From Falsiruegeria litorea R37 (GTDB lineage: Bacteria; Pseudomonadota; Alphaproteobacteria; Rhodobacterales; Rhodobacteraceae), in NCBI RefSeq assembly GCF_900172225.1, contig NZ_FWFO01000001.1, forward strand, positions 62,001-126,000: a stretch of 64,000 nt of DNA, given 5' to 3'. Below, in pieces: positions 46,626 through 47,558 of this stretch (its first letter is position 1; each line of letters begins with the position of its first letter). Position numbers and translations under genes: made by a program. The notes under the pieces were generated by a model, which had not been told where the DNA came from, did no database searches, and saw nothing but the letters and a program-made list of their open reading frames with translations.

Positions 46626-46700
46626 CGATTTCATTTGGAGAATTCGGAAACCCGTGTCACGCTCGGTCTTGAGTTCAACAAAAGAAAAGGAGGTGATCCA

Positions 46701-46757
46701 GTGTCGAGAAAGAGATTGGAGAGAGGTGTCGGAACAATTCGGGAGCGCGCCTTTTAG
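46701..46757 (+). CDS. possible 18-residue leader peptide
   Basis: GTG at 46701 lies 6 bases after an aaggaggt Shine-Dalgarno (46687-46694), an optimal spacing. It opens a frame of 18 codons ending TAG at 46755-46757. The peptide (MSRKRLERGVGTIRERAF) is very basic. I know of no homologue. The case rests on the extreme ribosome site alone; the site could instead serve a structural or antisense role. Confidence 0.35.
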   Translation: MSRKRLERGVGTIRERAF

Positions 46758-46845
46758 GGCAACCCTTGGCGGCAACGCCACCCGAAACGATCTGAGTTCA
46801 GGTCCGTGAGCATGCTCTGACCGACCCGACCTCCTGAACCTTTCG

Positions 46846-46875
46846 AAGGGCCGTCCGATATTGGGCGGCCCTTTT
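46846..46875 (+). terminator. Rho-independent terminator upstream of arfB
   Basis: An 11-bp stem with one G-U pair (aagggccgtcc with gggcggccctt) and a six-base loop is followed by tttt. It separates the candidate small transcript from arfB, which starts 47 bp downstream. Confidence 0.85.
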
Positions 46876-46921
46876 CGATTTTACTCTGTTTGACGTGCGG
46901 GGGCCGCTGTAAGGTCGCGCC

Positions 46922-47355: not shown

Positions 47356-47558
47356 CGGGGGTGCTCCCGCGCCCGAGCAGACCTGACTGCGTCAGCTCAG
47401 CTAACGGCCTTGGGCCGGGCGCCGAGCCCTCGGCTCGGCGCGGTTCCGCTTGGGGCACCTGTTCTGCATAGGCGAGACCCGCCGCGCGAAGCGCGGCCCG
47501 GCCCAACGGGAGGAGGTTTTTCTGCAAGAAAAATTGACGACGGGCGGGAGCACCCCCG
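47356..47558 (+). mobile_element. MITE-like element copy 1 (203 bp)
   Basis: The ends form inverted repeats: cgggggtgctcccgc at 47356-47370 pairs perfectly with gcgggagcacccccg at 47544-47558. The interior is GC-rich, with small hairpins and no usable gene. It matches the element at 52354-52606 in order and in several long blocks, notably cggcccaacgggaggaggtt and the aaaaattgacgacgggcggg block near the right end. It lies 14 bp after the arfB stop. No target-site duplication is evident. Confidence 0.75.

Follow-up and report, generated by a model that had tools for sequence, protein, structure and literature searches.

A remote relative of the CC2171 RNA in Falsiruegeria litorea as a putative 30S-docking small RNA

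Long Shine-Dalgarno (SD) sequences, tiny reading frames on short RNAs and messages whose fold controls ribosome access have each been described in bacteria. In Staphylococcus aureus, one study describes SD pairing that is extended towards the start codon, with small open reading frames (ORFs) and leader peptides among its users, as a general habit (PMC13009471). The rnTrpL/peTrpL system of Sinorhizobium meliloti is a tiny ORF on a short RNA which, according to one paper, is leaderless, comes from a trpE attenuator and yields a functional peptide (PMC10117765). For tisB (PMC7708055) and a toxin mRNA of Helicobacter pylori (PMC6733600), the structure of the message is reported to govern 30S access to the ribosome site. 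Bartonella BbsR14 is described as a short RNA with a sequence of the SD/anti-SD pair, in this case an anti-SD placed in stem-loops (PMC7717549). Closest to the RNA considered here is CC2171 (RF01867), filed by Rfam as an sRNA gene ("caulobacter sRNA"). Two reports place it among the families with an R-scape-improved structure in Rfam 15 (PMC11701678) and give one hit in a Mesorhizobium sRNA survey (PMC5596092). In a literature search that covered few subscription journals, queries for CC2171, RF01867, GGAGGUGAUCC, the peptide strings, and small ORFs, anti-SD or 30S returned no description of the ORF; nor did the same literature yield the full 16S complementarity, the class-wide spread or the SD masking in Rhodobacteraceae that are reported below.

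In the present work, we examine an element of Falsiruegeria litorea R37 that lies in a window of 64,000 nucleotides (contig NZ_FWFO01000001.1, positions 62,001 to 126,000). We will argue, at roughly even chances and from the sequence comparisons given below, that it gives rise to an mRNA-like small RNA of its own, which docks 30S subunits and has a clade-specific off-state in Rhodobacteraceae. The element differs from each of the systems above. Compared with the general habit of S. aureus, its 11-mer SD core occurs once in the R37 genome, in a stand-alone terminated unit. Unlike rnTrpL, it lies behind a promoter position of its own, its SD is extended and its peptide is not conserved. It differs from the type I toxin mRNAs in that it has no hydrophobic toxin, no known antisense partner and no conserved peptide, and from BbsR14 in that it bears the SD itself, together with a start codon and an ORF. 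The parts of the element are collected in Table 1.

Table 1. Parts of the element and the neighbouring arfB start, in window coordinates.
Feature	Position	Strand	Remarks
Whole element	46676..46872	+	Aligns with the whole Rfam RF01867 model (CC2171, positions 1-159)
Weak sigma-70-type promoter, TTGGAG, 17 nt, CACGCT	46635..46663	+	5/12 match in the window; position conserved
Extended SD, perfect complement to 16 nt of the 16S tail, AAAGGAGGTGATCCAG	46686..46701	+	
18-codon ORF, GTG to TAG, VSRKRLERGVGTIRERAF	46701..46757	+	Start and stop kept among relatives
Small hairpin across the stop codon; loop CAAC, of CARY type	46754..46769	+	
Internal anti-SD ACCTCCT, able to pair with the SD core	46829..46835	+	Predicted pairing
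CTTTCGA, P1-like strand, able to pair with bases just 3' of the start codon	46840..46846	+	
Intrinsic terminator: 13-pair stem, 4-nt loop, T-rich tail	46845..46874	+	
arfB ATG	46922		RF-1 domain in product

The extended SD is the sole perfect match of its kind in the window, and allowing up to three mismatches to the 16-mer gives 3 matches, to be compared with 0.36 expected by chance. Since the assembly of R37 lacks a 16S gene, we took the tail from two sister genomes within the genus (GGCTGGATCACCTCCTTTCT), and with this tail the complement in the window extends over 16 nt. In relatives with a G before AAAGG it is 17 nt. Both GGAGGTGATCCAG and the 11-mer core AAGGAGGTGAT occur a single time in the 4.69-Mb genome. 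The match overlaps the GTG start codon (46701-46703) by one base, its 16th and last, and the distance from GGAGG to GTG is 7 nt. The perfect 16-nt complement that a first-pass annotation of this DNA had pointed out is thus confirmed as an exceptional site with a core unique in the genome, and its remark on an optimally spaced GTG opening a basic frame of 18 codons also stands, with TAG at 46755-46757. Among the 24 elements found in Rhodobacteraceae, the first 10 bases of the extended SD are invariant. The commonest SD change, A to G in GATCC, retains a G-U pair with the 16S tail.

Turning to transcription, 67 of 121 non-redundant elements have a best promoter-like pair whose end lies 17-24 nt upstream of AAAGG, versus 3 in one shuffled set. 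(Two probable chance matches, L126 and L177, were left out of this count and of the hairpin counts below.) A plain promoter scan of the window reported none, and the pair given in Table 1 is only weak. We infer from the sequence that transcription starts near 46670 and ends near 46880, giving an RNA of about 200 nt, which with this start would open with a short CAACAA-type leader. A terminator is called in 24/24 Rhodobacteraceae elements, that of L022 being poor (duplicates L030, L031, L055, L058 and also L026 were left out), and in 102/118 named loci among the matches listed. The small unit proposed earlier, closed by a strong terminator 47 bp ahead of arfB, is borne out in the window. On its upstream side lies a gene for a Vut_1 (YhhQ-type) transporter.

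At the gathering cut-off, Rfam gives no match in the window. At a relaxed threshold, RF01867 matches the element over positions 1-159 of 159 with 38.2 bits and E 8.6e-7 (E 2.9e-6 in the whole-genome search), which is below the cut-off of 75 bits; the other Rfam families gave chance-level matches only. Intermediates are found across orders: the model matches 10 of 12 loci of several orders at 33-90 bits, and the cut-off is passed by 3 of 16 named loci. In a survey of 372 genomes of the class, the model has a match at E <= 0.001 in 80 and reaches its cut-off in 13; among 14 well-known control genomes Caulobacter vibrioides alone has a match. On the strength of these intermediates and of the end-to-end alignment, the window RNA is, by sequence comparison, a remote homologue of RF01867 CC2171 that lies below the formal threshold. 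The RNA family as such is already known from Rfam, but the cut-off misses the Rhodobacteraceae clade. The alignment with CC2171 takes in CAACAA...GAAAGGAGGUGAUCCAGUGUC at the 5' end and the terminator stem at the 3' end. A difference lies in the fold, because the Rfam consensus structure leaves the SD unmasked, whereas the Rhodobacteraceae form is predicted to pair it with the internal anti-SD.

At the DNA level, 29 of the 61 related genomes searched gave a match, and in Rhodobacteraceae the element is present in 24 of 37 genomes; G009/L026, which matched at the terminator alone, is excluded from this count. A strict class-wide pattern is found in 65 of 385 genomes, and a pattern with one mismatch, applied over the phylum, in 67 of 378. 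In this sample, all 67 one-mismatch matches fall among the 125 alphaproteobacterial genomes, versus 0 of 253 other Pseudomonadota. Conservation outside the strain, whose absence the first-pass annotation had named as a refutation, is hence present both within Rhodobacteraceae and class-wide. The orders among the matches listed are Rhodobacterales, Hyphomicrobiales, Sphingomonadales and Rhodospirillales, and Acetobacteraceae and Brevundimonas are represented as well. There is one copy per genome, except for G048 with two (C1:805104-805255 and C1:2921849-2922077), and of these the copy whose SD is altered (GATCGA) has the higher CC2171 score. Two further loci, L126 (SAR92-labelled) and L177, have the SD-start pattern without the usual leader and are probably chance matches; L126 reads like a tRNA region.

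The genomic neighbourhood differs from order to order. In Rhodobacteraceae, the element stands directly downstream of the transporter gene in 24/24 loci and is followed by arfB in 20/24, while in the other four (L013, L015, L019, L022) the element and the yhhQ-type gene are kept with no arfB nearby. In the loci compared outside the family, neither the transporter gene nor arfB adjoins the element. In Sphingomonadales its neighbours code for an S4/FtsJ protein and a class IV aminotransferase, Mesorhizobium-like loci have an acetyl-CoA synthetase there, and those of Bosea and Methylobacterium an RNB-domain nuclease (4 loci). As a separate observation on this region of the window, a perfect 15-nt inverted repeat, CGGGGGTGCTCCCGC (47356-47370 and 47544-47558, with arms 173 nt apart), sits in the GC-rich gap between arfB and an SDR gene, and could be a small mobile or palindromic element.

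We now consider the reading frame, which in the window encodes a short basic peptide. With the start codon left free, the pattern AAAGGAGGTGRTCCNNNNTC matches 66 of 385 genomes, and the free codon is ATG, GTG or TTG in 65 of these 66 (GCA in 1, CTG in 0), where chance would give 3/64 codons. Codon 19 is a stop in 38 of 39 Rhodobacterales (TAG 21, TGA 11, TAA 6), a set made up of the 24 Rhodobacteraceae loci and 15 named loci chosen by peptide type. The sole exception has AGG at this codon and stops earlier, at codon 13 (L007). TGG is found at codon 19 in 0 of the 39, versus about 6.8 predicted from the column frequencies. In Sphingomonadales, the stop is at codon 19 in 26 of 28.

The peptide behaves differently. 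For pN/pS, sequences were grouped according to the length of the ORF and its motif. The 37 from Rhodobacterales give 0.85, the 26 from Sphingomonadales 1.29, and six smaller groups, each with 5-9 members, 0.80-1.22, so that purifying selection on the peptide was not found in any of the eight groups (5-37 sequences, 0.80-1.29). An excess of variability at third codon positions was not found either. The peptides are alike within orders and different between them, and between most orders no similarity was seen. With start and stop codons conserved and pN/pS free of purifying selection, translation looks selected in these alignments while the peptide does not. It is important to note that constraint at the RNA level could imitate part of the start and stop conservation. 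The ORF usually has 18-35 codons elsewhere, and two variant forms were seen. Eight Bradyrhizobium-type loci (L092, L101, L103, L119, L135, L138, L170, L171) have a 14-codon ORF ending in KRCHLAGIAR or KRCHLAGDAR, which is among the least variable and yet has a pN/pS of 0.80. The Azospirillum form (L036, L113, L160, L178) has the same extended SD followed by an ORF of 50-59 aa with a hydrophobic stretch.

The first-pass annotation had also suggested that a downstream acctcct could sequester the SD, and the predicted folds agree with this. In the window, the pairing of this segment with the SD core has a predicted probability of about 0.98. For each of the 24 Rhodobacteraceae elements, the predicted fold has the SD core paired, with a mean probability of 0.98, and the pairing to the downstream anti-SD just 5' of the terminator has a mean of 0.95. 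The corresponding predicted value for pairing to downstream sequence is 0.13 in 32 elements outside the family, and shuffling the downstream stretch gives a mean SD-core pairing of 0.46. For four elements, masking is not clearly above the shuffles (L018 14/40, L005 10/40, L017 7/40, L020 6/40). Some members of the family have an anti-SD segment that is itself similar to the 16S tail (CUGGCCCAUCUCC vs CUGGAUCACCUCC). Computed outside the ribosome for the 24 elements, the duplex of SD and 16S tail amounts to -27.4 to -35.4 kcal/mol and that of SD and internal anti-SD to -12.5 to -26.9 kcal/mol; the former being the stronger, the 30S subunit could win. Since masking is clade-specific, it cannot be the core function of the RNA.

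The predicted window transcript folds better than its shuffles (z -4.2). A further helix, P1 of the CC2171 family, would join the bases after the start codon to those just before the terminator. In a class-wide sample (148 of 174 elements kept, of which 99 non-redundant), the native energy is -12.3 kcal/mol versus -8.5 kcal/mol for swapped strands, with 0 of 2000 permutations as good, relatedness being uncorrected in this comparison; individually, 18 of the 99 beat 95% of their swaps. The sample omitted L126 and L177 as probable chance matches, L059, L040, L166, L091, L022, L042, L044, L057 and L054, and also elements without a called terminator or beyond the distance limits. Within Rhodobacterales, covariation in P1 was not found: over 32 unique pairs (L022 and duplicates left out), 4434 of 5000 permutations were as good as the native pairing. 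We therefore do not claim the P1 helix for the window, and we likewise do not claim a conserved pseudoknot or a P1/SD switch in Rhodobacterales. Another structural feature is a hairpin with a CARY loop. Of 122 non-redundant elements, 35 have it between +69 and +75 and 38 have it anywhere in the searched stretch, the latter to be compared with a mean of 4.2 and a maximum of 10 in 100 shuffled sets. In some other orders it lies inside the ORF, where it reads EQP, and in Rhodobacterales it lies after or across the stop codon, which marks it as a feature of the RNA.

With a 5' end complementary to nearly the whole free 16S tail and a tiny ORF behind it, the RNA appears built to catch ribosomes, and on the sequence comparisons the evidence favours ribosome engagement over a functional peptide. 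In the mechanism that we propose, the 5' end would be an optimised docking site, composed of the CAACAA-type leader, the SD and a start codon 7 nt past the SD core, and the SD would base-pair along practically the entire single-stranded 16S tail. The 30S subunit would then bind with near-maximal affinity, after which a dispensable peptide of about 18 codons would be translated, and the useful act would be the occupancy of the RNA by the ribosome. In Rhodobacteraceae, the RNA without a ribosome would be folded shut, SD with anti-SD, and a 30S subunit on the SD would hold it open. The open or closed state would thus track the supply of free 30S, and so may the lifetime of the RNA or its capacity to take up 30S. 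The target of the RNA would be in trans or the RNA itself rather than arfB, and the occupancy might serve sensing, buffering or the timing of decay. Very strong SDs help the 30S subunit to enter structured start sites and can delay its departure, both of which would suit an RNA of this kind. An SD of 16 nt need not mean strong translation, since in Escherichia coli, according to one study, an SD of six nucleotides outperforms longer ones (PMC2176067). Ribosome profiling offers points on both sides. In Caulobacter, the intergenic regions that yield most of the ncRNAs are reported to be untranslated (PMC4117421), which we count against docking; in S. meliloti some annotated sRNAs are reported to be translated (PMC10117765), which fits it. 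A literature search by name, covering few subscription journals, did not find the CC2171 RNA.

Three other readings are ranked below docking. The RNA could be a small mRNA whose order-specific basic peptide is functional, with the extended SD securing its synthesis from a structured message. The kept start and stop codons, the likeness of the peptides within orders and the 50-59 aa Azospirillum form with its hydrophobic stretch speak for this, but pN/pS is close to 1 in every group, most orders show no peptide similarity to one another, and the one motif that crosses orders, EQP, is an in-frame RNA hairpin that stands after the stop in Rhodobacterales; we consider this reading unlikely. Much the same judgement applies to the idea that the RNA acts in trans to titrate 30S subunits or the anti-SD and that its ORF is incidental. 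In favour of this, the terminated unit has a 5' end complementary to nearly the whole free 16S tail, but a pure decoy would need neither the properly spaced start (65/66) nor the kept stops, and titration would demand a very high abundance of the RNA. A role as antisense guide, by which the 3' end of 16S would be matured or protected, would agree with a complementarity that ends near the end of the tail and with the RNB-domain nuclease beside the element in Bosea and Methylobacterium. Against it, the match to 16S in the alignments is not continued beyond the tail, the start and stop codons are selected and the nuclease is a neighbour in four loci only, so that we hold this reading to be very improbable.

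The remaining candidates have still less in their favour. The first-pass annotation had tied the element to arfB, and a cis-acting leader or attenuator of this gene is suggested by the 47 bp between the terminator and its ATG here and by its presence next to most Rhodobacteraceae elements. This link does not hold: arfB is missing in 4/24 of these loci, other and unrelated genes adjoin the element in other orders, and a terminator closes every Rhodobacteraceae element, if poorly in L022. With synteny breaking both within the family and across orders, we have rejected the arfB leader as highly improbable. In some type I toxin mRNAs, the SD is masked by a long-range internal anti-SD, and the masking predicted in Rhodobacteraceae resembles this; the peptide, however, is short, basic and unconserved, and outside the family the SD is mostly unmasked from downstream, which makes a silenced toxin message an even more remote prospect. 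Finally, the 16 nt identical to the complement of the 16S tail could be a stray piece of an rRNA gene or a product of chance, the former being a possibility that the first-pass annotation had raised. The element is not such a fragment, as the rRNA similarity ends at 16-17 nt and the promoter position, start, stop and terminator are conserved class-wide; we regard this origin as ruled out and chance as next to inconceivable.

Returning to the docking reading, a bolder form of it would be that Alphaproteobacteria share a dedicated 30S-occupancy RNA whose state reports free 30S, and that in Rhodobacteraceae a segment like the 16S tail competes for the SD and turns the RNA into a two-state switch. 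We put this forward tentatively, as a proposal that is rather doubtful. An sRNA family filed under Caulobacter is spread over a bacterial class with a genome-unique 16S-complementary site, and it keeps its start and stop codons without keeping its peptide. An SD far beyond the usual optimum length is maintained by selection. If ribosome capture is the role of this RNA, a single natural gene would report on or regulate free 30S, which is difficult to measure.
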